DNA of 64,000 bases, from the NCBI RefSeq assembly GCF_018622995.1, contig NZ_CP076022.1:124001-188000 (forward strand), written 5' to 3'. Below the pieces are notes generated by a model. The model was not told the DNA's origin. It was given only the letters and a program-made list of their open reading frames with translations, and did not search any database. The stretch's first letter is position 1. Every line of letters starts with the position of its first letter. Shown piece by piece: positions 26,576 through 57,035 of this stretch. The DNA is from Arthrobacter jiangjiafuii (GTDB taxonomy: Bacteria; Actinomycetota; Actinomycetes; Actinomycetales; Micrococcaceae). The position numbers and the translations under genes were made by a program.

Positions 26576-26648
26576 GCCCCCATCGTCTAGCGGCCTAGGA
26601 CACCGCCCTTTCACGGCGGCGGCACGGGTTCGAATCCCGTTGGGGGTA
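26576..26648 (+). tRNA. tRNA-Glu (TTC)
   Basis: The 73 nt fold as a complete cloverleaf. The acceptor arm GCCCCCA pairs with TGGGGGT (one G-T pair). The anticodon arm is CCGCC-CTTTCAC-GGCGG with anticodon TTC, and the T arm is ACGGG-TTCGAAT-CCCGT. No CCA is encoded. Confidence 0.96.
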
Positions 26649-26708
26649 CTCAGGAGTGGTAATTCGACCGGAGAAATGCTGGTAGAGTTGACACTCGTGA
26701 AAAGTATG

Positions 26709-26782
26709 GCCCTGTAGCGCAGTTGGTTAGCGCGCCGCCCTGTCACGGCGGAGGTCGCGGGTTCGAGTCCCGTCAGGGTCGC
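26709..26782 (+). tRNA. tRNA-Asp (GTC)
   Basis: The 74-nt cloverleaf has acceptor arm GGCCCTG/CAGGGTC, anticodon arm CCGCC-CTGTCAC-GGCGG with anticodon GTC, and T loop TTCGAGT. No CCA is encoded. Confidence 0.96.
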
Positions 26783-26839
26783 TCAGATTTTCTGAAGCGA
26801 TTTGGAAGATCTCGGTGATCATCGGTAGCGATGATGCCC

Positions 26840-26915
26840 GGCTCTGTAGCTCAGTTGGTAGAGCGTTCGACTGAAAATCGAAAGGTCACCGGATCGACGC
26901 CGGTCGGAGCCACCA
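26840..26915 (+). tRNA. tRNA-Phe (GAA)
   Basis: The 76 nt include an encoded CCA. The acceptor arm GGCTCTG pairs with CGGAGCC, and the anticodon arm TTCGA-CTGAAAA-TCGAA gives anticodon GAA. The T loop reads ATCGACG, with A instead of T at position 54, which is unusual. A terminator follows. Confidence 0.95.
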
Positions 26916-44913: not shown

Positions 44914-45802
44914 AAACGAGGCGGATGACCTGGCCGTCCGGCGTCTGCTGTCCCAATCGGAGGTTGAGGAAAGCCCCGAGCTCCTGGAGGGCCTTCGCCG
45001 GCTGCGTTCCTTTCGGGCCGCACCGGCGCCGGAACCGTCCGGCCGGCTGGCCGCCTTGCTGCAGGGATCCGTCACGCCGCCGCCTAAAAGCTCCCGGGGC
45101 CGGGGGATAGTGCTGAGTTTCGCCGTCGCCGGCGCCATGGCAGCGGGAGTCTCCGGGGTCGCGGCGAGTGATGAAGTGCTCCGCACCTGCGAATCGATTA
45201 TCGACGCCTTCGACCAGGACCAGGAGGCCCCGGTCCCGGAGTCTCCGGCCGGGGAGGAGCCCTTGGCCGGAAGCCCGGGCCAGCAGCAGGATGTGCTGCC
45301 GGGCGCTGGAGCCGAGCCGGCCGGGGCTGCTGTTTCCGCTGACCCGTCTTCGGCAGAGCTGCCCGGGCCAGTGCTTCCCGAGGGCGGCGTCCCCGCCACG
45401 GCAGTCATTCCCGCCGACCCCGCGCGGATCGCTGTTTCCCCGCCGGCGACAGCCAAGACCCCTGCCGCTGCGCCGACGGGTCCTGCTGCATCACCGGGCC
45501 CCGCTGCATCACCGGGGGCCGTGGACGCCGGTACCCAGCCCGGACCTGTGATCGTCCCCGTCCCGGCACCGGTGGTGGAGCCTGTCCTTCCCAAAGAACC
45601 GCCCGCTCTGGCGCAGCCCGAGCCGCAGCCCGAAGGTCAGGTGTGGGTGCTGCCGGGGCGGGACCGCGGGGAAGAGCCGGTGCCGCACCCCTGGCCGTCT
45701 CCGCCGACGGATCTCAAGACCCAGAACCATGACGACCGGCGCGGCTCGTCCGGCGGCGTCGACGGCGAGGGCCACGCGGAGACCGGCTGGGGCACCAACT
45801 AG
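44888..45802 (+). CDS. Single-pass membrane protein, putative anti-sigma factor
   Basis: The 304 residues have a cytoplasmic N-terminus with two helical segments (about 12-45). One membrane helix follows (about 73-93, GIVLSFAVAGAMAAGVSGVAA), then a long extracytoplasmic Pro/Ala/Glu-rich tail with no fold evident. It overlaps the sigma gene by 26 nt, and GACAGGAGG precedes the ATG. No zinc-binding HxxxCxxC motif is seen, so the anti-sigma role is inferred from position and topology. Confidence 0.65.
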   Translation: MDNKLPESENEADDLAVRRLLSQSEVEESPELLEGLRRLRSFRAAPAPEPSGRLAALLQGSVTPPPKSSRGRGIVLSFAVAGAMAAGVSGVAASDEVLRTCESIIDAFDQDQEAPVPESPAGEEPLAGSPGQQQDVLPGAGAEPAGAAVSADPSSAELPGPVLPEGGVPATAVIPADPARIAVSPPATAKTPAAAPTGPAASPGPAASPGAVDAGTQPGPVIVPVPAPVVEPVLPKEPPALAQPEPQPEGQVWVLPGRDRGEEPVPHPWPSPPTDLKTQNHDDRRGSSGGVDGEGHAETGWGTN

Positions 45803-46305
45803 GCGGTCAGCTGCCGCTTGGAGGAGATGACTCCGGTATTGAACCCGGCCAGGTTCAGGCCGCCGTGGAACCGGGCGTGTTCGATCTTCACGCAACGGTC
45901 CATCACCACGTCCAGCCCGGCTGCCTCGGCGTCGCGGGCCACGCCTTCGTGCCAGGAACCCAGCTGCAGCCACAGCGTTTTCGCCCCCACGGCGACTGAC
46001 TCCTGCAGGACCGAGGGCAGGTCATCGTGCCGGCGGAACACATCCACGATGTCCGGGACCTCGGGCAGGTCCGCCAACGAGGCGTACACCGGACGGCCCA
46101 GGATCTCCTTGGCCACCGGATTCACGAAATACACCCGGTACGGCGAGGACGAGAGCAGATACGTGGCGACGAAATAGGACGCCCGTGACGGCTTGTCCGA
46201 GGCGCCGACAATGGCGATGGACTGTGCCCGGCGCAGCAGTGCCAGGCGTTCCGGGGCGCCCGGCCCCTCCCAGGTACGCGGTGTCGCAGTGGGTTCAGCG
46301 GACAT
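45799..46305 (-). CDS. CoA-binding domain protein (YccU-like)
   Basis: The 168-residue Rossmann protein has IAIVGASDKPSRASYFVATYLL at the nucleotide-binding turn, then 'VYFVNPVAKEILGRPVYASLADLPEVPDIVDVFRR' and 'LWLQLGSWHEGVARDAEAAGLDVVMDRCVKIEH'. The family binds CoA in vitro; its role is unknown. It overlaps the metY 3' end by 11 nt with GAGGAG before its ATG, so it is translationally linked to metY. A paralogue lies at 56619. Confidence 0.88.
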   Translation of the reverse strand: MSAEPTATPRTWEGPGAPERLALLRRAQSIAIVGASDKPSRASYFVATYLLSSSPYRVYFVNPVAKEILGRPVYASLADLPEVPDIVDVFRRHDDLPSVLQESVAVGAKTLWLQLGSWHEGVARDAEAAGLDVVMDRCVKIEHARFHGGLNLAGFNTGVISSKRQLTA

Positions 46306-47647
46306 GGGTGGACTCCTCAAGGACGGGGACAACAGGGGTGGCAGCCGCAACCGCGGGAACCGGGGCGGCTGCGGCGTCGAGCGCCTGGTCCAGATCCCAA
46401 AGGATGTCCTCGAGATCCTCCAGTCCCACCGAGATGCGGACCAGGTCTTCGGCGACGCCGGCAGCTGCGAGCTGTTCCGGGGAAAGCTGGCCGTGGGTGG
46501 TGGATCCGGGATGGATGACCAGGGTCCGCGAATCGCCCACGTTGGCCAGGTGCGAGGCCAGCTGCAGGGCCTCGATGAAGGTCTTGCCGGCCTCCCGGCC
46601 GCCCCGGACCCCGAAGCTGAACACCGAGCCGGGCCCCTTGGGCAGGTACTTTTTCGCCCGGTCGTAGTGCGGATGCGAGGGCAGGCCGGCGTAGCTGACC
46701 CAGGACACCCGCTCGTCGGCCTCCAGCCACTGCGCCACGGCCAGGGCGTTTTTCAGGTGTTCATCCAGCCGTTGAGGCAGGGTCTCCACACCCTGCAGCA
46801 GCGCAAACGCGGAGGTGGCACTCAGCGTCGGCCCGATATCGCGCAGCTGCTCGGACCGCAGCTTGGTGAGGAACCCGTATTCGCCGAAGTTTCCCCACCA
46901 GGAGATGTTCCCGTAGCTGGCCACGGGTTCGGTCATGGCCGGGAACTTGCCGTTGCCCCAGTTGAATCGTCCGGATTCCACCACCACCCCGCCGAGGGTG
47001 GTGCCGTGCCCGCCGAGGAACTTGGTGGCGGAATGGATGACGATGTCCGCGCCGTGCTCGAACGGGCGCACCAGGTACGGCGTGCTCAGGGTGGCGTCCA
47101 GGATCAGCGGCACACCGGCGTCGTGCGCCACCTTCGCCAGCCCGGCGATATCGGTGACCTCGCCGCTGGGATTGGCCACCACCTCGGCGTACACCGCCTT
47201 GGTGTTCTCCCGGATGGCGGCGGCATAGTCCGCCGGATCGGTGCCGGGAACAAACGTGGTGTCGATGCCGAAACGGCGCAGGGTCACGTCCAGCTGGGTC
47301 ACCGTGCCACCGTAAAGCTGGGCGGCGGCAACAATGTGGTCCCCGGCGCCGCACAGCGCAGCGAAGGTCACGAACTCCGCTGACATGCCCGACGCCGTAG
47401 CCACCGCCCCGATGCCGCCCTCGAGTGAGGCGATGCGCTCCTCGAACGCCGCCACCGTGGGGTTGCCGATCCGGGAGTAGATGTTGCCGTACTTCTGCAG
47501 CGAAAACAGGTTTGCGGCGTCGTCGGTGTCCTTGAAGACAAACGAAGTGGTCTGGTAAATGGGCACGGCCCGGGCGCCATGCGTGGCGTCGGGGGTGCCG
47601 CCGGCGTGCAGGGCACGGGTCCGGAAGCCGAATTGGCGGTCACTCAT
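46295..47647 (-). CDS. metY: O-acetylhomoserine sulfhydrylase (Cys/Met-metabolism PLP enzyme)
   Basis: The enzyme makes homocysteine from O-acetylhomoserine and sulfide, the direct route into methionine. The 450 residues match the family: 'FGFRTRALHAGGTPD', 'PIYQTTSFVFKDTDDAANLF', 'YSRIGNPTVAAFEERIASLEGG', the PLP-lysine motif IHSATKFLGGHGTTLGG and 'HPGSTTHGQLSPEQ'. GGAAGGA lies upstream of the ATG at 47647. No riboswitch is visible before it. It is followed by an overlapping CoA-binding protein gene. Confidence 0.93.
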   Translation of the reverse strand: MSDRQFGFRTRALHAGGTPDATHGARAVPIYQTTSFVFKDTDDAANLFSLQKYGNIYSRIGNPTVAAFEERIASLEGGIGAVATASGMSAEFVTFAALCGAGDHIVAAAQLYGGTVTQLDVTLRRFGIDTTFVPGTDPADYAAAIRENTKAVYAEVVANPSGEVTDIAGLAKVAHDAGVPLILDATLSTPYLVRPFEHGADIVIHSATKFLGGHGTTLGGVVVESGRFNWGNGKFPAMTEPVASYGNISWWGNFGEYGFLTKLRSEQLRDIGPTLSATSAFALLQGVETLPQRLDEHLKNALAVAQWLEADERVSWVSYAGLPSHPHYDRAKKYLPKGPGSVFSFGVRGGREAGKTFIEALQLASHLANVGDSRTLVIHPGSTTHGQLSPEQLAAAGVAEDLVRISVGLEDLEDILWDLDQALDAAAAPVPAVAAATPVVPVLEESTHVR

Positions 47648-47721
47648 GAGAGCGGTCCTTCCTGGTGGGCCGCGGTGAAGCGGCGGGACGATCGTTGCAA
47701 GTTGAGGGCGGCACCCGAACA

Positions 47722-47991
47722 ATGAAGCCCATGGACAATTACGTTGTTGTTGTCGAAACCGGCTACAAGCTGGGCGACGCCACGCACAAGATCACTGCCA
47801 CGGATCCGTTGCCGCACGTTGAGGCGAGCCGCCTGTTCCTGGAACTCATGGACGGGCTGCATGATGACCTTCTGCCGTTGAGGGCGGACTCCAGCATCCT
47901 GGAGGTCTCGCCCACGGAGTTCGTGCGCATCCACAGCCAAATGGGCGGAGTGGTGGTGCTGGATCGGGTGACACTGGCCCGCGTTCACTGA
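47722..47991 (+). CDS. Small protein of unknown function
   Basis: The 89 residues (MKPMDNYVVVVETGYKLGDATHK...) have an alternating strand/helix pattern and end 'VSPTEFVRIHSQMGGVVVLDRVTLARVH'. I do not recognise a family. It may begin at the second ATG, 47731. It is divergent from metY and its end overlaps the acs stop codon region by 7 nt. Confidence 0.55.
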   Translation: MKPMDNYVVVVETGYKLGDATHKITATDPLPHVEASRLFLELMDGLHDDLLPLRADSSILEVSPTEFVRIHSQMGGVVVLDRVTLARVH

Positions 47992-50015
47992 GGAACACCT
48001 GCCCGCCGGTTTTCACAGGCGCTGGCGATCTCAGCGATGCAGGGTTCGTTCTGCAGGCTGGTGGTGTCGCCCAGAGCCGTGCCTTCGAACAGCTGGGTCA
48101 GTAGGCGGCGCATGATTTTTCCGGACCGGGTTTTCGGGACATCGGGAACGACGACGACGGCGGCCGGCTTGGCGATCGGCCCGATCTCCCGGGCGATGTG
48201 GGCCCGGAGCTCCACGGTGACCCGCTGCGTGAAAGCCGGATCCCGGGGCCCGGACTCCGGCAGGGCCGCCGCGGCTGCGGGGGTGAGGACCACAAACGCG
48301 GTGATGGCGTGTCCGGTCTTTGGATCCGCCACCGGGCACACCCCCGCTTCGGTGACCCAGGGGTGGGACACCAGCGCGGATTCAATCTCGATGGTGGAGA
48401 GCCGGTGCCCTGACACGTTGAGCACGTCGTCGGTGCGGCCGAGGATCCAGGTGTCACCGTCGTCGTCGTATTTGGCACCGTCACCGGCCAGGAACCAGCC
48501 CTGCCTGGCGTACTGCCGCCAGTAGGAGGCCAGGTAGCGCTGCGGGTCGCCCCAGACGGTGCGGGCCATGGCCGGCCCGGTCTTATCCAGCACGATGAAA
48601 CCCTGCGTGTTAGGGGGCACCGGATTGCCGGCATCATCCACGATCCGGGTGGACACGCCGGGCAGGGGCCGGGAGGCGCAACCGGGCTTATAACCGGCGT
48701 CGGTGGGACGCGGAGACAGGATGGTGGCGCCGGTCTCGGACTGCCACCAGGTATCGATCATCGGAACCGTTCCGCGGCCCAGATGCCTGCGCAGCCAGCG
48801 CCACGCCTCCGGGTTCACTGCTTCGCCCACGGTGCCGAGCAGGCGGATGGAGGAGAGGTCAAAGCGCTCGGGCACCCCGTCCGGGAACCAGCCCATCAGC
48901 GACCGGACCAGGGTAGGGGCCGTGTAGTAGCTGGTCACCTTGTACCGCTCGATGATTTCAAAGTGCCGGGCCGGGTGCGGGGTGTTGGGGGTGCCTTCGT
49001 AGAGGACCTGGGTGGCACCGTTGGACAGCGGCCCGTAGATCTCGTAGGTGTGGGCGGTGACCCAGGCCAGATCGGCGGTGCACCAGTGGACATCGCGCTC
49101 GCGGGCGGCCGGATCCGGATTGGCGAAGAGGTATTCGTAGCTCCAGGACGTCTGGGCAAGATAACCACCCATGGTGTGCACCAGCCCCTTGGGCTTTCCG
49201 GTGGTGCCGGAGGTGTACATGATGAACAGCGGCGTTTCGGCGTCGAAGGCCTCCGGTTCGTGGACCTCGGAGGCGGTGTCCACGGTGTCGTGCCACCAGA
49301 CGTCGCGGCCCTCGGTCCACGCAATGTCCGAGCCGGTGCGGCGGACCACCAGCACATGCTCAATGGCGTTGGTTCCCGCGACGGCGGCATCGGCGTTGGC
49401 CTTGACCGGGACGGCGGCACCGCGGCGGAACTGCCCGTCCGTGGTCACCAGCAGCTTCGCTCCGGTGTCCTCGACCCGGAACTTCAGTGCGGCCGCGGAG
49501 AAGCCGCCGAACACGAGCGAGTGCACGGCGCCGATCCGGGCGCAGGCGAGGGTAATGACGATGGTTTCCACGATCACCGGCAGGTAGATGACCACCCGGT
49601 CGCCGGCGCCGATGCCCAGTGCGAGCAGGGCATTCGCGGCACGCGAGACCTCGCGCTGCAGGTCCTCGTAGGTCACGGTGCGGCGGTCGCCGGGCTCGCC
49701 CTCGAAGTGCAGGGCCACCCTGGCGCCGCGGCCGGCGGCCACGTGCCGGTCCACGCAGTTCACGGCGACGTTCAGGGTGCCGCCGGCGAACCACTCGATG
49801 GCGGGGACGCTGTAGTCGGCGTCTGCTTCCGGAACCTCCGGGCCGCTGAGCCGCTGCGGCGGGGTGAAGGTGTGCGCGGTGTGCCAGGGCTGTTCCCACT
49901 GCAGGCGCGCGGCCGCTGTTTCCCAGAACGCGATCCGTTCTGCCTCTCCGTCTGCGCTCCCGTCCCAGTTGGCAGCAGGGGTGTCCGCGTGTTCAAGGCT
50001 GGTGCTCAGGCCCAT
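47985..50015 (-). CDS. acs: Acetyl-CoA synthetase (AMP-forming)
   Basis: The enzyme activates acetate (or a close analogue) to acyl-CoA with ATP. The 676 residues include the adenylation loop IMYTSGTTGKPKGLVH, IDTWWQSETGATILSP with the Trp typical of acetate-specific pockets, 'GRTDDVLNVSGHRLSTIEIESAL' and PKTRSGKIMRRLL with the regulatory acetylatable Lys. The ATG at 50015 overlaps the ABC permease stop by 10 nt, so the gene is the last of a transporter operon that begins with a SAM riboswitch. It may use a transported carboxylate, but that is a guess. Confidence 0.93.
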   Translation of the reverse strand: MGLSTSLEHADTPAANWDGSADGEAERIAFWETAAARLQWEQPWHTAHTFTPPQRLSGPEVPEADADYSVPAIEWFAGGTLNVAVNCVDRHVAAGRGARVALHFEGEPGDRRTVTYEDLQREVSRAANALLALGIGAGDRVVIYLPVIVETIVITLACARIGAVHSLVFGGFSAAALKFRVEDTGAKLLVTTDGQFRRGAAVPVKANADAAVAGTNAIEHVLVVRRTGSDIAWTEGRDVWWHDTVDTASEVHEPEAFDAETPLFIMYTSGTTGKPKGLVHTMGGYLAQTSWSYEYLFANPDPAARERDVHWCTADLAWVTAHTYEIYGPLSNGATQVLYEGTPNTPHPARHFEIIERYKVTSYYTAPTLVRSLMGWFPDGVPERFDLSSIRLLGTVGEAVNPEAWRWLRRHLGRGTVPMIDTWWQSETGATILSPRPTDAGYKPGCASRPLPGVSTRIVDDAGNPVPPNTQGFIVLDKTGPAMARTVWGDPQRYLASYWRQYARQGWFLAGDGAKYDDDGDTWILGRTDDVLNVSGHRLSTIEIESALVSHPWVTEAGVCPVADPKTGHAITAFVVLTPAAAAALPESGPRDPAFTQRVTVELRAHIAREIGPIAKPAAVVVVPDVPKTRSGKIMRRLLTQLFEGTALGDTTSLQNEPCIAEIASACENRRAGVPQ

Positions 50016-50881
50016 TTGTTCACCGCCCATTTTTCGGCCAGGCCCAGGACGGCGTCGGTGGTTTTGCCGATGACGGCCAGCAGGACGATCGCCAGCAGCA
50101 GCCGGTCGGTGCGCCCGTTGTTCTGCGAGTCGATCAGCAGGAAGCCCAGCCCCATGGAGGAGGCGATGAGTTCGGCGGCAACCAGGAACAGCCAGGCCTG
50201 TGCCAGTGCCAGCCGCAGCCCGGAGAACACCGCCGGAACAACGGCCGGCAGCTGGACGGTGCGCAGCAGGCTGAGGCCGTTGAGCCCGAAGGCGCGGGCC
50301 GCTTCCACCAGGTTCCGGTCCACGTGGCGCAGGGCCAGGGACACGGTGGTGAACACGGGGAAGAACGCGCCGATGGCGATCAGCGTGATCTTGGAGTCCT
50401 CGCCGATTTTCAGCCACAGGATCAGCAGCGGCACCCAGGCCAGCGATGGCACGGCGCGCAGCGCGCCGACCACCGGGCCCAGCAGGATCTCGGCCAGCCG
50501 GGACAGTCCCAGCAGGGCGCCGAGGGCCAGGCCGAGCAGTGCGCCGATGGCGAACCCGATGAGGACCCGCTGGGTGGAGATGGCGATATGCAGGCCCAGC
50601 TGGCCGCGGTCGATGAGGTCAAGGGCGGCGGTGTAGACGGCCGCAGGCGACGGCAGCTGGACCGCTGTGAAGACGCCGGCGGCGGTGCTGAGCTGCCAGG
50701 CGGCCAGGAGCAGCGCCGGAACCACCAGACCCAGGACCAGCCGGATCCAGCGGCGGGAGAGCGGACCGGTTGCCGCGGCGTCCGGAACGGGTCCGGCGGG
50801 TGCGGCGGCCGCCGTCGTTCCGGCCGTGACTGCGGCTGCGGAGGCGCCCTCGGTCGAAGAGTAGTTGTCGGTGGAAGGCAT
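50006..50881 (-). CDS. ABC transporter permease, sulfonate/taurine type (SsuC/TauC-like)
   Basis: The 291-residue protein has six membrane helices after a Ser/Ala-rich N-terminus. The EAA loop reads 'LVEAARAFGLNGLSLLRTVQLPAVVPAVFSGLRLALAQAWLFLVAAELIAS', as in SsuC/TauC/NrtB permeases. It shares TGATG with the lipoprotein gene upstream and overlaps acs downstream. It probably imports sulfonates or related organosulfur compounds; the SAM riboswitch supports sulfur. Confidence 0.88.
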   Translation of the reverse strand: MPSTDNYSSTEGASAAAVTAGTTAAAAPAGPVPDAAATGPLSRRWIRLVLGLVVPALLLAAWQLSTAAGVFTAVQLPSPAAVYTAALDLIDRGQLGLHIAISTQRVLIGFAIGALLGLALGALLGLSRLAEILLGPVVGALRAVPSLAWVPLLILWLKIGEDSKITLIAIGAFFPVFTTVSLALRHVDRNLVEAARAFGLNGLSLLRTVQLPAVVPAVFSGLRLALAQAWLFLVAAELIASSMGLGFLLIDSQNNGRTDRLLLAIVLLAVIGKTTDAVLGLAEKWAVNKWA

Positions 50882-51954
50882 CAGGATTCCTTCACCGCGT
50901 CGGGATCGGTCTGGCGCACAAAGGAGTCGTCGAAGAGGCTGTCCAGGGCGGTGTCGATCTGGGCCTGGCTGCTCACGTCACCGGTTTCCACGAGTGTGGG
51001 TCCGATTTTCTCCAGCACGCTGCGCTGTGCGGCGCCGGGGGTGGGATCCACATCCAGGTTGCTCCGTTCCAGCACCACGGTCCGGGCCACCTCGAGGTCC
51101 AGGCCGGCGACGTCGGCCAGGATCTGCGCCGTTTCCTCCGGGTTTTCGGCGGCCCAGGCACGGGCCTTCTCGTAGGCGTTGACCACTGCCTGCGCCTGTT
51201 CCGGATCCTCCGCGAGAAAGGCTTCGTTAGCGGCCAGGACGCCGTACGTGTTGAAGTCCAGATTGCGGTAGAGCAGCTGGCCGCCGTTTTGCTCGGCTCC
51301 GGCCATGATCGGATCCAGCCCGGACCAGGCGTCTACTGAACCGTTTTCCAGGGCGGTGCGGCCGTCCGCGTGCTGCAGCTGCTCCACCGTGACGTCGGAG
51401 AGGCTCAGCCCGGCCTCCTCCAAGGCCTGGACCAGGAAGAAGTACGGGTCGGTGCCCTTGGTGGCCGCCACCGACTTTCCCTTCAGATCCGCCACAGAGG
51501 TGATTGCGGAATCCGCGCCGACCACCAGCGCCGACCACTCCGGCTGGGAGAAGACGTCGATGGCCTTGATTTCCGAGCCGTTGGCGCGGTTGAGCAGGGC
51601 TGCGGAGCCGGCGGTGGATCCGACGTCGATCGCCCCGGAACGCAGGTTTTCGTTGGCCTTGTTGGACCCGGCAGACTGCACCCACTCCACGGTGACGCCG
51701 TCCTCGGCGAGGGTTTCCTCCAGCCACCCCTGGTCCTTGATGATCAGGCTCAGCGGGTTGTAGGTCGCGAAATCGATGGTGAGGGTCCCGCCGTCGGCCG
51801 CCCCGGCGTTCGCTGCAGGTTCGGTGTCCTCACCTGCGACGCAGCCGGTCAGCAGCAGCGCTGCGGTGGCTGCTGCCGCGGCCAGGGTTGTGGCCGGTGC
51901 GCGGGACGGGATAGTCCGGCGGGCGGGGGAAGAGGTGTGGGAACGGCTGTTCAT
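50881..51954 (-). CDS. ABC transporter substrate-binding lipoprotein (SsuA/NrtA-like)
   Basis: The 357 residues have a signal peptide with lipobox LLLTGC (Cys38), followed by a periplasmic-binding fold: 'TLTIDFATYNPLSLIIKDQGWLEETLAEDGVTVEWVQSAGSNKANENLRSGAIDVGSTAGSAALL', 'VADLKGKSVAATKGTDPYFFLVQALEEAGL' and 'VDAWSGLDP'. This is the aliphatic-sulfonate/taurine class. It would be tethered to the outer face of the membrane. It starts at 51954, 138 nt after the ATPase gene, and shares TGATG with the permease gene. Confidence 0.9.
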   Translation of the reverse strand: MNSRSHTSSPARRTIPSRAPATTLAAAAATAALLLTGCVAGEDTEPAANAGAADGGTLTIDFATYNPLSLIIKDQGWLEETLAEDGVTVEWVQSAGSNKANENLRSGAIDVGSTAGSAALLNRANGSEIKAIDVFSQPEWSALVVGADSAITSVADLKGKSVAATKGTDPYFFLVQALEEAGLSLSDVTVEQLQHADGRTALENGSVDAWSGLDPIMAGAEQNGGQLLYRNLDFNTYGVLAANEAFLAEDPEQAQAVVNAYEKARAWAAENPEETAQILADVAGLDLEVARTVVLERSNLDVDPTPGAAQRSVLEKIGPTLVETGDVSSQAQIDTALDSLFDDSFVRQTDPDAVKES

Positions 51955-52092
51955 TGGAGTTCTTTCTATGCGAAGGCAGGGATGGGTGCGCGGAACGCGC
52001 ACGGAATAACCGGAGGAGCAGGATGGGGCAGCGGGGCAGTGCGCCCGGAAGGTGGTGCTGCGGGGTACTGCCGGCTTGCGGCGGCGGAGGCG

Positions 52093-52926
52093 CTAGTGGC
52101 GGTCGACGCCGAGGCGGGCCAGGAGCTCGCCGCGCATTCGGGCCAGGTCGGCCGAGGCGCGGGCGCGGGGCCGCCGTCCGGGCACGGTGATGGTGTCGGT
52201 GATGGTGGCTCCCGGCGTTCCGGGTTCCTTGCCCAGGATGATGATCCGGTCCGCCAGTTGGAGGGCCTCGTCCACATCGTGGGTTACCAGCAGCACGGTG
52301 GTGGGGGTGGCTTTGTGTACCGACAGCAGCAGGTCCTGCATCTTCAGCCGGGTCAGGGCGTCCAGCGCGCCGAACGGCTCATCCAGCAGCAACACTCCGG
52401 GGGTACGGGCCAGCGCCCGGGCCAGGGAGGCGCGCTGCGCCATGCCGCCGGAGACGGCCCGCGGGCGGTGCTTGGCGAAGGGCGCCAGTTCCACCAGCTC
52501 CAGCAGTTCGGCTACCTTGGCCTTGCCGTTTTTCGCGCTCATGCCCTTGGGCAGGCCCATGGCAATGTTGGCCTGCAGTGTCTGCCAGGGCAGCAGCCGG
52601 GGTTCCTGGAAGGCGACGGCGCACCGGTCATCAATGCCGCGGACGGCCGTTCCGTTGATCAGCACCTCGCCGCTGCTGGCGGCATCCAGCCCGGCTGCGG
52701 CACGCAGCAGCGTGGACTTTCCGCAGCCGCTGGAGCCCAGGATGGCCAGTACCTCGCCGGGGGAAACCTCGAAGGTGATGTCACGCAGCACCCGGTGGGC
52801 GGCCTGGCCGGTGCCGAAGCTGCGGCTCAGCTGGGCGAAGGTGACGGGAAGGGCAGAGCCGGAGGGTGGACCCACAGTACTGGCGGGCGGTGGGGTGGCA
52901 GGCGTGCGCGAAGCCAAGGCAGTCAT
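52093..52926 (-). CDS. ABC transporter ATP-binding protein (SsuB/TauB-like)
   Basis: The 277-residue ATPase has Walker A LGSSGCGKSTLLRAAAGLD, Q-loop FQEPRLLPWQTL, signature VSGGMAQRASLARAL and Walker B VLLLDEPFGALD. 'LLVTHDVDEALQLADRI' ends the core. The family energises sulfonate, taurine or nitrate uptake. It is first in the operon. The ATG at 52926 is preceded by GGAGAG that lies directly beside the P1 stem of a SAM-I-type riboswitch, so translation initiation is the likely control point. Confidence 0.93.
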   Translation of the reverse strand: MTALASRTPATPPPASTVGPPSGSALPVTFAQLSRSFGTGQAAHRVLRDITFEVSPGEVLAILGSSGCGKSTLLRAAAGLDAASSGEVLINGTAVRGIDDRCAVAFQEPRLLPWQTLQANIAMGLPKGMSAKNGKAKVAELLELVELAPFAKHRPRAVSGGMAQRASLARALARTPGVLLLDEPFGALDALTRLKMQDLLLSVHKATPTTVLLVTHDVDEALQLADRIIILGKEPGTPGATITDTITVPGRRPRARASADLARMRGELLARLGVDRH

Positions 52927-52935
52927 GTTAACTCT

Positions 52936-53092
52936 CCATCGGTCCTGGCAGTAGCACCCTACGGAAAGCACCTTGGGCCGGTTAGGGCCTCCTGCGGTGT
53001 TGTCCTCGTTATTGCCGTACCTCAAGGAGGAAATACGGCAACCAGGGTTGCTGCGGCTTCACTGATCCAGGTCTCTCAGCCGCTCGGGATGG
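52936..53092 (-). promoter_or_regulatory. SAM-I (S-box) riboswitch, actinobacterial type
   Basis: On the minus strand, P1 is CCATC (53092-53088) with GATGG (52940-52936). P2 is GCGGC...GCCGC containing the kink-turn element GGCTGAGAGACC. The conserved core follows as GCCGCAGCAACC and AAGGTGC, then TGCCAGGACC, whose CCAGG can pair with the P2 loop CCTGG as a pseudoknot. The Shine-Dalgarno of the ABC ATPase gene lies next to P1. The long P3 region (about 80 nt) is larger than usual. CTGAGA alone could suggest TPP, but the rest fits only the S-box. Confidence 0.8.
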
Positions 53093-53190
53093 TCAAGAGC
53101 CACTAAACGCGCCATTGAGGAAACGGGCAAGTCCTGCCCGTAATATTTCGACTCTCTGCGGAACTGCGTCCGGCGTGGGGCCCGGAGGTG

Positions 53191-53219
53191 TTGACCGGCA
53201 CAGGGCTGGCTCCTAACCT
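53191..53219 (+). promoter_or_regulatory. Promoter of the first alpha/beta-hydrolase gene
   Basis: TTGACC, 17 nt, TAACCT, giving a leader of about 55 nt. It has the same boxes, spacing and GGCTCCTA context as the promoter at 55742. Confidence 0.65.
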
Positions 53220-53279
53220 GCCAAGTGGGGGAGCCGGCAGGGTCTTCCGACCGTCGTACATTCCCGGGAAGGGACAGCC

Positions 53280-54050
53280 ATGGCCGACGCTGCGTCAGGG
53301 ACGGTGCTATCCCCGGACGGCACCTCGATTGCATGGGAACGCAAGGGATCCGGACCGCCGCTGGTAATCGTTGATCCCGTGCTGATGGACCGCACCACAT
53401 CAGTCTCCGCAGGCATCGCGAAACTGCTGGCGCGGAACCGGACGGTGTACACGTACGACAGGCGGGGCAAGGGCGAGAGCGGGGACAGCAGCGCGGAATA
53501 TGAGCCGAGCCGCGAAATTGACGATCTGCTGGCCGTCATCGGGGTGGCCGGAGGAGCTGCGGATCTGTACGGGTTTTCCTCGGGTGCGGTGCTGGCGCTG
53601 ATGACGGCTGCCGACTCCGCGGCCGTGAGCTCAGTGGTGGCCCTGGAGCCCCCGCTGTCCCGGGTAGTGGACCACGGCCCGGACATCCGGGGGGAGCTGG
53701 CGCAGCTGATAGCGGCCGGGGACCGTGACGAGGCCGTGCGCGTATTCCAGCGTTCCATCGGGGTACCGGAGGAGATGATCGCGGCGGCAGACGTGGGGGC
53801 CTTTGCCCCGGCGGCACATACGATCGCTTACGACCTGACCCTCAACGCTGACGCAGATCTGGAGAGCTTCGGCAGCATCCGGGTACCGGTGCTGGTGCTG
53901 GTCAGCGGCAGCAGCGATGCCCGGCTGCAGGAATGGGCGCGGGAAACCGCCGAGGCGCTGGCCGATGCCCGCCTCCAGGTGTTGGACGGCAGCTGGCACG
54001 GGGTCCAGGACGAGCCGCTTGCCGCGGCCATCAACCAGTTCCTGGCCTGA
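53280..54050 (+). CDS. Alpha/beta hydrolase with intact cap
   Basis: The 256 residues include the nucleophile elbow LYGFSSGAVLAL (Ser100), 'YTYDRRGKGESG', a cap segment at about 125-195 and a C-terminal 'GSWHGVQDEPLAAAINQFL' with the catalytic His. It is a serine hydrolase of unknown substrate. A shortened paralogue at 55828 lies on the other side of the flavin monooxygenase gene. AAGGGAC stands 6 nt before the ATG. The organosulfur link is inferred from position. Confidence 0.85.
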   Translation: MADAASGTVLSPDGTSIAWERKGSGPPLVIVDPVLMDRTTSVSAGIAKLLARNRTVYTYDRRGKGESGDSSAEYEPSREIDDLLAVIGVAGGAADLYGFSSGAVLALMTAADSAAVSSVVALEPPLSRVVDHGPDIRGELAQLIAAGDRDEAVRVFQRSIGVPEEMIAAADVGAFAPAAHTIAYDLTLNADADLESFGSIRVPVLVLVSGSSDARLQEWARETAEALADARLQVLDGSWHGVQDEPLAAAINQFLA

Positions 54051-54118
54051 GGCAGCCGGTTCACAAAAGGTCACGTTCTTCCCCCACGGGCAGTTGGCGT
54101 GCCAATACTGGACCTGAA

Positions 54119-54231
54119 GGATCATGAGTCCCAACGCGAAGCTCTGGCTGGTTGGGCGGCAACCCTCTTCTCCGTAGCGGGGTGCCCCAGATGAGGATCC
54201 GGCCGTTCCGCGTCCGCGGACGGCAAGTACG
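54119..54231 (+). promoter_or_regulatory. SAM-IV-type riboswitch
   Basis: The stretch reads GGATCATGAGT, then CTGGCTGGTTGGGCGGCAAC, then CCCTCTTCTCCG and GCGGGGTGCCCCAGATGAG, closed by GATCC (P1 54119-54123 with 54196-54200). It is followed by the downstream hairpin and conserved GACGGCAAGTACGG that distinguish SAM-IV from SAM-I. The flavin monooxygenase ATG is 38 nt beyond. SAM binding would turn the gene off when methionine/SAM is plentiful. Confidence 0.85.
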
Positions 54232-54269
54232 GCGTTCCCCTGGGGCGTCCCGTTCCGAAAGGCTGTCCC

Positions 54270-55706
54270 ATGCCCGAACAGATCCCTTCCCCGGCCGACT
54301 TGAGCATTTCCCCGGCAAAAGAGAGTGCCCGGCGCCAAATCCGCTTCAACGCCTTTGATATGAACTGCGTCGGGCACCAGTCTCCGGGCCTGTGGCGCCA
54401 CCCGGAGGACCGTTCGGCCGACTACACGGACATCCGCTACTGGGCGGACCTGGCGAAAACCTGCGAAAAGGGCCTCTTTGACGGCATTTTCCTGGCCGAC
54501 GTGCTCGGGACCTACGACGTGTACGGCGGATCCAACGAGGCCACGCTGCGGCAGGGCACGCAGGTTCCGGTGAACGATCCGCTGCTCCTGGTTTCCGCCA
54601 TGGCCCTGGTCACCGAGCACCTCGGCTTCGGGGTGACCGCGGGGACCGCCTACGAACACCCCTATCCGTTTGCCCGCCGGCTCTCCACCCTGGACCACCT
54701 CACCAACGGGCGGGTCGGCTGGAACGTGGTCACCGGCTACCTGCCCTCCGCCGCGCGGAACCTGGGCGCCGAAGACCAGCTGGAGCACGACGAGCGCTAC
54801 GACCACGCGGATGAATACCTTGAGGTCATCTACAAGCTCCTCGAAGGCTCCTGGGAGGACGGCGCCGTCGTCCGCGACAAACAGGCCGGCGTGTTCACCG
54901 ATCCGGCCAAGGTTCACGACATCAACCACGAGGGCAAGTACTTCAAGGTCCCCGGCATCCACATCAGCGAACCCTCGCCGCAGCGCACCCCGGTGATCTT
55001 CCAGGCCGGGGCCTCTCCCCGCGGGATCGCCTTCGCCGCTGGCAACGCCGAGGCCGTGTTCGTGGGAGCGCCCACCAAGGCAAAGCTCAAGGCCATCGTC
55101 GCGAAAATCCGCGATGCCGCGGAGGGAGCGGGCAGGGACCGGCACTCCATCCGCATCTACACGCTGATGACCGTGATCACGGCCGCCACCCCCGAAGAGG
55201 CGGCCGCCAAGCACGAGGACTACCAGCAGTACACCAGCCACGAGGGCGCCCTGGCCCTGATGTCCGGCTGGATGGGCGTGGACCTGTCCACCTACAACCT
55301 GGACGAGCCGCTGGGCAACGTGAAGTCCAACGCCATCCAGTCCTCAGCCGCGAACTTCCAAAAGCCCAAGGACGACGGCGAACCCTGGACGGTGCGCGAC
55401 ATCGCCGACTCGGTGGGCATCGGCGGGCTCGGTCCCCGGATGGTCGGTTCGGGTGCGGAAATCGCCGAGGAAATGATCCGCTGGGTGGAGGAGACCGACG
55501 TCGACGGTTTCAACCTGGCCTACGCCATCACGCCGGGCACCTTTGAGGACATCGTGGAGTTTGTGGTGCCCGAACTGCAGAAGCGCGGCGCCTATAGAAC
55601 CGAATACGCGCCTGGGACCCTGCGCAACAAGCTCTTCGACCGGGGTGACAGGCTGCCCCCGGAACACCGGGGTGCCTCATTCAGGCTGCAGCCGGCGGTG
55701 AATTAA
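54270..55706 (+). CDS. NtaA/SnaA/DszA-family FMNH2-dependent monooxygenase
   Basis: The 478-residue luciferase-like (LLM class) monooxygenase has 'QIRFNAFDMNCVGHQSPGLWRHPEDRSADYTDIRYWADLAKTCEKGLFDGIFLADVLGTYDVYGG', 'RRLSTLDHLTNGRVGWNVVTGYLPSAARNLG' and 'HRYDHADEYLEVIYKLLEGSW'-like family blocks. Members cleave C-N or C-S bonds in chelators, sulfones or sulfonates using FMNH2 from a separate reductase, which I do not see here. Control by the upstream SAM-IV riboswitch argues for a sulfur substrate. AAAGG lies 7 nt before the ATG. Confidence 0.92.
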   Translation: MPEQIPSPADLSISPAKESARRQIRFNAFDMNCVGHQSPGLWRHPEDRSADYTDIRYWADLAKTCEKGLFDGIFLADVLGTYDVYGGSNEATLRQGTQVPVNDPLLLVSAMALVTEHLGFGVTAGTAYEHPYPFARRLSTLDHLTNGRVGWNVVTGYLPSAARNLGAEDQLEHDERYDHADEYLEVIYKLLEGSWEDGAVVRDKQAGVFTDPAKVHDINHEGKYFKVPGIHISEPSPQRTPVIFQAGASPRGIAFAAGNAEAVFVGAPTKAKLKAIVAKIRDAAEGAGRDRHSIRIYTLMTVITAATPEEAAAKHEDYQQYTSHEGALALMSGWMGVDLSTYNLDEPLGNVKSNAIQSSAANFQKPKDDGEPWTVRDIADSVGIGGLGPRMVGSGAEIAEEMIRWVEETDVDGFNLAYAITPGTFEDIVEFVVPELQKRGAYRTEYAPGTLRNKLFDRGDRLPPEHRGASFRLQPAVN

Positions 55707-56618: not shown

Positions 56619-57035
56619 GTGGCACATGTCAACGACCCCGCAGTAGTCGAACGTCTCCTCCGCAACAAGGGCCGGTGGGCCGTCGTCGGGCTTTCCAATA
56701 ATCCGATGCGCCCTGCCGTGGGCGTCTCCAGATACCTCCAGGACCATCTGGGGATGGAGATCATCCCGGTGAGCCTGAAGGGCGACGACGTGCACGGCAA
56801 CAAGGGCTACCGGCGGCTCAGCGAGATTCCCGGGACGATCGACGTGGTTGACTGCTTCGTGAACTCCACCCGGGTCGGAGACGTCGTGGATCAGGCCATC
56901 GACGTGGGCGCGAAGGCCGTCTGGCTGCAGCTGGGCGTCATCGACGAGGCCGCGGCCGCCCGTGCCGCCGCTGCCGGGCTGGATGTCGTGATGGACACCT
57001 GCCCCGTCATTGAGGCTCCGGCCTACCGTTTGTGA
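56619..57035 (+). CDS. CoA-binding domain protein (YccU-like), second copy
   Basis: The 138-residue Rossmann protein has WAVVGLSNNPMRPAVGVSRYLQ, 'IIPVSLKGDDVHGNKGYRRLSEIPGTIDVVDCFVN' and '[32 protein letters not shown]'. It is related to the product at 45799 but shorter at the N-terminus. It starts with GTG, with GGAAAAGG 8 nt upstream. No partner gene is coupled to it. Confidence 0.87.
   Translation: MAHVNDPAVVERLLRNKGRWAVVGLSNNPMRPAVGVSRYLQDHLGMEIIPVSLKGDDVHGNKGYRRLSEIPGTIDVVDCFVNSTRVGDVVDQAIDVGAKAVWLQLGVIDEAAAARAAAAGLDVVMDTCPVIEAPAYRL

Follow-up and report, generated by a model that had tools for sequence, protein, structure and literature searches.

A SAM-I-like aptamer with an enlarged P3 helix beside a SAM-IV aptamer at a divergent gene pair in Arthrobacter

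The SAM-I, SAM-I/IV and SAM-IV riboswitches have one ligand-binding pocket in common, according to the available part of PMC6890682, and the same part describes SAM-IV as lacking a P4 helix. For SAM-I, the available part of PMC2258182 describes a ribosome-binding site located within P1. A leader carrying two SAM classes is also known, where both classes are found in a single mRNA leader. The locus analysed here lies in a stretch of 64,000 nt of Arthrobacter jiangjiafuii (contig NZ_CP076022.1, positions 124,001 to 188,000), which we call the window. Like that leader, it brings two classes of SAM aptamer together at one place, but here they head two divergent transcription units. The minus-strand element shares with the SAM-I family (RF00162) the helices P1 and P2 with its kink-turn region, the P3 core GCAACC/GGUGC, the partners of the PK-1 pseudoknot and a ribosome site in P1. 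It differs from that family in having no P4, a feature it shares with SAM-IV, and in carrying within P3 an additional covarying domain of ~75 nt comprising two hairpins. The plus-strand element matches the SAM-IV family (RF00634) from end to end (54120-54235), with no departure from the family found. Our conclusion is that a new structural variant of SAM-I stands beside an ordinary SAM-IV. Neither the enlarged-P3 variant nor a divergent pairing of SAM-I with SAM-IV is reported in the titles and abstract openings of the matching papers listed, a scope that leaves most of the subscription literature outside.

The features of the locus are collected in Table 1. The two aptamers had been placed about 1.0 kb apart on opposite strands by the initial annotation, and they do indeed lie back to back with a gap of 1,024 nt. 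The gap is filled by the hydrolase gene, as it is in two further genomes (G002 and G003); in the other three genomes with a wide gap this gene was not detected there. The best NCBIfam model for the ATPase is the aliphatic sulfonate ATPase, at 203.5 bits and thus below its cut-off of 395. The gene families and the SAM leaders suggest a sulfur-scavenging role for both units. A metY-type gene (46295-47653, minus strand, TIGR01326) is found shortly after the acetate-CoA ligase gene, and in the window no SAM element precedes it at E up to 1. Elsewhere in the genome another gene for a PLP enzyme of Cys/Met metabolism has a SAM-IV leader. Genes for CoA-binding-domain proteins (PF13380) flank the region at 45799-46347 (minus strand) and 56619-57035 (plus strand), and genes for tRNA-Glu, tRNA-Asp and tRNA-Phe stand in a row at 26576-26915 (plus strand).

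Table 1. Features of the divergent locus, with second copies of the long SAM-I element at other loci. Positions are those of the window unless a locus (L) is named.
Feature	Position	Strand	Evidence or remark
Acetate-CoA ligase family protein, following the transporter genes	47985..50006	-	TIGR02188, 767.7 bits, cut-off 724.95
ABC permease, SsuC-like	50006..50881	-	PF00528; best match the SsuC model, 184.9 bits, below cut-off 347
SsuA-family substrate-binding protein	50881..51957	-	TIGR01728, 223.6 bits, cut-off 163.5
ABC transporter ATPase, SsuB-like	52093..52926	-	PF00005
SAM-I-like aptamer, enlarged P3, without P4	52930..53095	-	leader of the ssu-type ABC operon
Shine-Dalgarno GGAG	52934..52937	-	overlaps P1 3' strand GATGG; 7 nt to ATG 52926-52924
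P3 3' strand GGGTGCT	52953..52959	-	invariant; followed by J3/4 with CCAGG, then directly by P1 (no P4)
Inserted hairpin B	52967..53001	-	contains AAGGTGC 52974-52968; changes on both sides in 6/6 outer and 4/4 inner pairs
Junction strand AATAACGAGG	53004..53013	-	conserved; 6/10 letters invariant in 23 aligned insertions
Inserted hairpin A, C-rich apical loop	53012..53041	-	changes on both sides in 7/8 pairs
P3 5' strand AGCAACC	53046..53052	-	RF00162 alignment and genus alignment
P2, kink-turn region and loop CCTGG (53071-53067)	53053..53083	-	
P1 5' strand CCATC	53088..53092	-	pairs with GATGG 52940-52936; no variation among 26 distinct rows of the genus or 76 distinct rows of the family
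Candidate promoter TTGCCC-N17-TTTAGT	53102..53130	-	by eye; just upstream of the SAM-I aptamer
Alpha/beta hydrolase, between the two leaders	53280..54050	+	PF12697
SAM-IV aptamer, monooxygenase leader	54120..54235	+	RF00634, 92.2 bits, cut-off 38, E 2.2e-15
Likely Shine-Dalgarno AAAGG of the monooxygenase gene	54258..54262	+	by eye
NtaA/DmoA-family FMN-dependent monooxygenase	54270..55706	+	TIGR03860, 566.6 bits, cut-off 279.7
Second copies of the long SAM-I	L104:3349-3515, L106:3435-3599, L108:3387-3553, L112:9798-9967		

The SAM-IV aptamer proposed ahead of the flavin monooxygenase gene is present at full length. All 116 positions of the RF00634 model are aligned, including the P5 region, and the score places it within the family. 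Where SAM-I has P4, this class has a P5 hairpin with the pseudoknot PK-2. By folding energy the segment does worse than 196 of 200 shuffled sequences. The aptamer is preceded by AATACT (54104-54109), read by eye as part of a candidate promoter, and ATACTG is kept in 15 of 15 rows. A strict scan returned no promoters, and all those named here are readings by eye.

The minus-strand element is less readily assigned. The whole-window Rfam scan that found SAM-IV returned no SAM-I match over the cut-off; when searched without a cut-off, RF00162 matched 53095-52933 (minus strand) at 41.8 bits (E 2.8e-08) over model positions 1-108. The gathering score of RF00162 is 44.4 bits, and the element at 53095-52930 lies below it and is not a member by score. 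By the rule that the initial annotation had set for itself, that covariance scores below threshold for either element would count against it, SAM-IV passes and SAM-I narrowly fails. The low score arises because of the P3 insertion of ~75 nt and the missing P4. In the RF00162 alignment 75 letters fall within P3 at five model positions, 2 nt occupy the 18 model positions of P4 with no P4 hairpin, and the core of P1, P2 and P3 with GCAACC/GGUGC is present and is invariant in relatives. The aptamer is nonetheless real. Of 29 genomes examined in the genus, 28 have the long form (span 161-166), G017 being the exception, and this conservation rescues the sub-threshold match; all 28 are below the cut-off. 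A covariance model built from 27 long SAM-I rows of the genus, the window included (model R1), gives 199.9 bits at the element, and 12.4 at the next-best site of the window. Besides SAM, no Rfam family matches the ssuB leader at E up to 10. Membership of the SAM-I/IV class was rejected, as RF01725, searched at E up to 10, matches nowhere in the genome. We therefore class the element among SAM-I-like variants and do not count it as an ordinary RF00162 member. The earlier claim of two SAM classes at one divergent sulfur locus is upheld in these terms, with a sub-threshold structural variant as its SAM-I arm.

Within this element the P1 pairing CCATC/GATGG and the segments GGCTGAGAGACC and GCCGCAGCAACC are as the initial annotation had described them. 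The same annotation took AAGGTGC (52974-52968) as a strand of P3, and this assignment was rejected: the motif sits in inserted hairpin B, changes in relatives and is kept in just 2 of 27 aligned rows. P1 is invariant in the rows and is thus conserved without covariation. CCTGG in the loop of P2 (53071-53067) can pair with CCAGG in J3/4 (52948-52944, minus strand), forming the PK-1 pseudoknot. Its five complementary pairs are all invariant in 26 distinct rows, which is again conservation and not covariation. Energy folding of the single SAM-I leader forms P3 together with hairpins A and B, and forms neither P1 nor P2.

The candidate promoter, as read by eye, would place the start of the transcript close to P1, and its TTTAGT is present in 28 of 28 genus rows. 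Scanning the SAM-I leader revealed no convincing terminator. The scan gave one terminator-like site (GCAGCAACCCTGGTTGC) against 0.6 expected by chance; it needs TTGC, which is not kept in relatives such as G001 and G005, and was rejected. At the other end of the leader the sequence GATGGAG is invariant in 27 genus rows of the alignment. Because the ribosome-binding site overlaps P1, translational repression of the ssu-type operon by SAM is likely. Binding of S-adenosylmethionine to the SAM-I-type leader would close P1, and the closed helix would hide GGAG, whereupon translation of the operon would stop.

In the genus alignments (28 rows and 27 rows) the invariant core comprises P1, the ends of P3 and the CCTGG and CCAGG strands of the pseudoknot, with the two hairpins inserted. 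The 27 genus rows (26 distinct) were aligned with MAFFT without fitting to a structure, and the scored structure was drawn from this same alignment; in it 95.4% of cells are paired, compared with 27-52% for slid partners, and double changes occur in 10 pairs versus 1-4 when slid. Further pair types in the genus alignment number 16 against a shuffle mean of 20.4, and so are not above the shuffles. An alignment of 76 distinct rows of the family, fitted to the model structure and including short forms with gaps set aside, has 94.8% of cells paired (28-54% when slid), double changes in 20 of 40 pairs (6-12 when slid) and a covariation of 0.190 (0.011-0.029 when slid). A score below the Rfam cut-off is what might be expected of a broken relic, spoilt by the insertion, but such a reading is scarcely credible: the core letters are invariant, covariation in the insertion spans five genera of the family, and of the 83 matches to model R1 over 68 sources 65 are 164-180 nt long, so that size and place have been kept.

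The inserted domain probably stabilises P3, as a scaffold for folding or docking. The junction letters are strongly conserved in the 23 aligned insertions, and the loop of hairpin A and the bulge of hairpin B offer a candidate contact made up of two C-G pairs that do not vary and a further position showing double changes. Complementarity as high was reached in 18 of 500 permutations (43 rows), weakly above shuffled partners. Two flanking pairs were also tested; the first forms in 8 of 16 rows, the second in 19 of 23. A contact between loop A and bulge B, tested in these two ways, is only suggestive. These features could also belong to a second sensing domain, by which the transporter leader would respond both to SAM and to some further input, be it a protein, a small molecule or a ribosome-related contact; the invariant junction letters exceed what a plain extension would need, and the candidate contact also speaks for such a domain. 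Conserved junctions serve folding too, however, and the contact is weak in both tests. When 248 genomes of the order were searched with a model of the insertion alone, six gave a match, and each time it sat within a long SAM-I; no free-standing copy was seen in these 248 genomes, under stricter filters that weak copies could escape. Since SAM is also the only Rfam family to match the leader at E up to 10, we regard a second sensor as quite improbable.

The P3 insertion is seen only in the Micrococcaceae. Of 295 genomes in the family, 249 give some match to model R1, and among the matches listed the strong ones (~160-180 nt) come from genera g1, g8, g10, g25 and g32. An exact pattern of the long form, searched in a genome collection with one genome per species (84,980 species), returned 60 stretches, all titled Arthrobacter, Pseudarthrobacter or other Micrococcaceae bacterium; being exact, this pattern would pass over divergent long forms (some family rows fall outside it), and records close to the window's genome may be absent from the result. 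Most long elements lie below the RF00162 gathering score (62 of 65), which is reached by none of the 28 in the genus and by 3 of the 37 others. Of the 65 long elements, 37 had their downstream gene checked, and in 33 of these it is ssuB. The remaining four are second copies before genes other than ssuB (Table 1), and of the two looked at, that in L112 precedes a gene for a major-facilitator transporter and that in L104 a gene for a family-5 solute-binding protein. Other forms occur before ssuB as well, with a form of 138 nt in G191 and a short SAM-I in G065, where another SAM-I precedes the divergent monooxygenase gene.

Absence of P4 extends beyond the long form. The five alignments displayed, out of six SAM-I matches in G000, G013 and G065, have 1-2 letters at the 17-18 model positions of P4, and SAM-I elements of this lineage that score above the RF00162 cut-off lack the helix too; the Rfam model therefore does not require P4. 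Among 119 genomes sampled from the phylum, the 30 SAM-I loci with the highest scores, a choice biased towards the model, mostly have P4: it is present in 28, with 32-63 nt after GGTGC, while two have 20-21 nt there. That a SAM-I without P4 represents a step towards SAM-IV is only a thought. A bolder proposal builds on it, taking the enlarged P3 as a nested sensor or docking domain of a two-input SAM-I that would couple SAM and a second signal to sulfonate-type uptake, with the P4-less lineage as an intermediate between SAM-I and SAM-IV; we hold this to be very doubtful.

Both classes are used elsewhere in the genome of the window. Its SAM-I matches of weight score 52.1, 45.4 and, for the window, 41.8 bits, two of the three over the cut-off, and six SAM-IV matches are over theirs; all 29 genomes of the genus have SAM-IV over the cut-off. 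The pairing is less surprising than the initial annotation supposed, because the genome uses both classes elsewhere and because the classes are described as sharing a pocket (PMC6890682, in the part available). A divergent SAM-IV lies no more than 1,115 nt from the long SAM-I in 15 of 28 genomes, at 137-261 nt in nine and at 1,025-1,115 nt in six. The nearest SAM-IV in G011 is 8.6 kb away, and G013 has a canonical short SAM-I at 181 nt from the long SAM-I, in place of a SAM-IV. The other 11 genomes have no SAM-IV nearby, the nearest on the same contig being 107-113 kb away. The distances were counted with a selection of SAM-IV rows, and these 11 genomes, G011 and G013 were rechecked with their full-scan rows. 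The fetched stretches of the 11 gave no match to a monooxygenase opposite ssuB, with a hydrolase gene opposite instead.

The initial annotation had suggested that having both classes could set different SAM thresholds for uptake and for desulfurisation. The mixed pair conserved in those 15 genomes speaks for this. It sits less well with G013 and G065, where the gene pair has SAM-I on both arms, or with the 11 genomes where the contig of the long SAM-I has no SAM-IV closer to it than 107 kb and where the fetched stretch showed no monooxygenase, and we consider different set points unlikely.

Some further observations were made on these loci. The spacing of 107-113 kb is rather constant among the 11 genomes. 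In four genomes (G004, G006, G010 and G022) long, near-perfect inverted repeats, found by eye, lie between the leaders and resemble small palindromic repeat elements; several genes of the G022 locus are split in tblastn, perhaps from sequencing errors. At four loci (L112, L116, L117 and L119) a further divergent pair of a short SAM-I and a SAM-IV occurs beside the long SAM-I of ssuB. The gene led by its SAM-I belongs to the cobalamin-independent methionine synthase family (checked in L116), and the gene led by its SAM-IV to the acyl-CoA dehydrogenase family (checked in L112 and L119).

The class of leader varies on the monooxygenase gene. Among 77 loci (the best 30 matches, 40 chosen among the matches listed and 7 others, with matches in 145 of 245 genomes) there are 29 SAM-I leaders, 21 SAM-IV leaders and 27 with none detected. 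The labels are model matches up to 500 nt upstream, with 'none' denoting a match to neither model; 20 loci were checked with Rfam, and five loci of the genus (L044, L050, L064, L065 and L066) were labelled from the coordinates of the genus SAM-IV search. SAM-IV leads 16 of 17 monooxygenase loci in g1, 4 of 6 in g32 and the single one in g10. On a quick tree of the monooxygenase, several forks of which are weak, all SAM-IV rows fall in one clade of 26 rows, which also holds four SAM-I rows and one without a leader, and SAM-IV requires two changes. The SAM-I-led ortholog of G013 branches just outside this clade (SH-aLRT 94). Taking SAM-I as the older state on this gene is the simplest reading, not a proven one. 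With SAM-I rows sitting inside the SAM-IV clade, one gain of SAM-IV with reversals would fit the tree, and so would two gains. The SAM-IV leaders of five g1 monooxygenases are 82-85% identical to a g8 SAM-IV before a gene of the acyl-CoA dehydrogenase family, and 69-77% identical to four g32 and g10 monooxygenase leaders, a pattern that would allow for two separate acquisitions. Only these identities were used, a tree built on 16 SAM-IV leaders having been set aside as too short and uneven for ordering events. The class distribution fits a replacement of the leader on the monooxygenase gene. It is in that sense that assembly of the locus from two sources, the other suggestion of the initial annotation, finds support: the leader class varies between loci, SAM-IV is held within one clade, G065 has SAM-I on both arms and G013 pairs a long with a short SAM-I.

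The account that we favour, and consider well founded, is that of two divergent transcription units for sulfur scavenging, both under repression by SAM and each through a leader RNA of its own, where the difference in class arose by replacement of a leader. The two elements are observed, as are their conservation and the overlap of ribosome site and P1 in the ssu-type leader; SAM binding and the direction of control are inferred, and the SAM-IV leader would probably act on the monooxygenase gene in the same direction. The covarying insertion and the absence of P4 are likewise features of the alignments, to which a stabilising role of the inserted domain has been added. As for the order of events, which we infer from the distribution of classes on the tree, SAM-IV would have replaced SAM-I on the monooxygenase gene in an Arthrobacter lineage and in some relatives. 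The difference in class most likely reflects history.

At least five genera of one family carry a SAM-I subtype that is mostly sub-threshold in the standard model. The role of its additional, covarying P3 domain is open to a simple deletion test. The monooxygenase leaders form a natural series, in which one orthologous gene has different aptamer classes in species of a single family, and this series is useful for asking whether classes that share a binding pocket can be interchanged in the cell.
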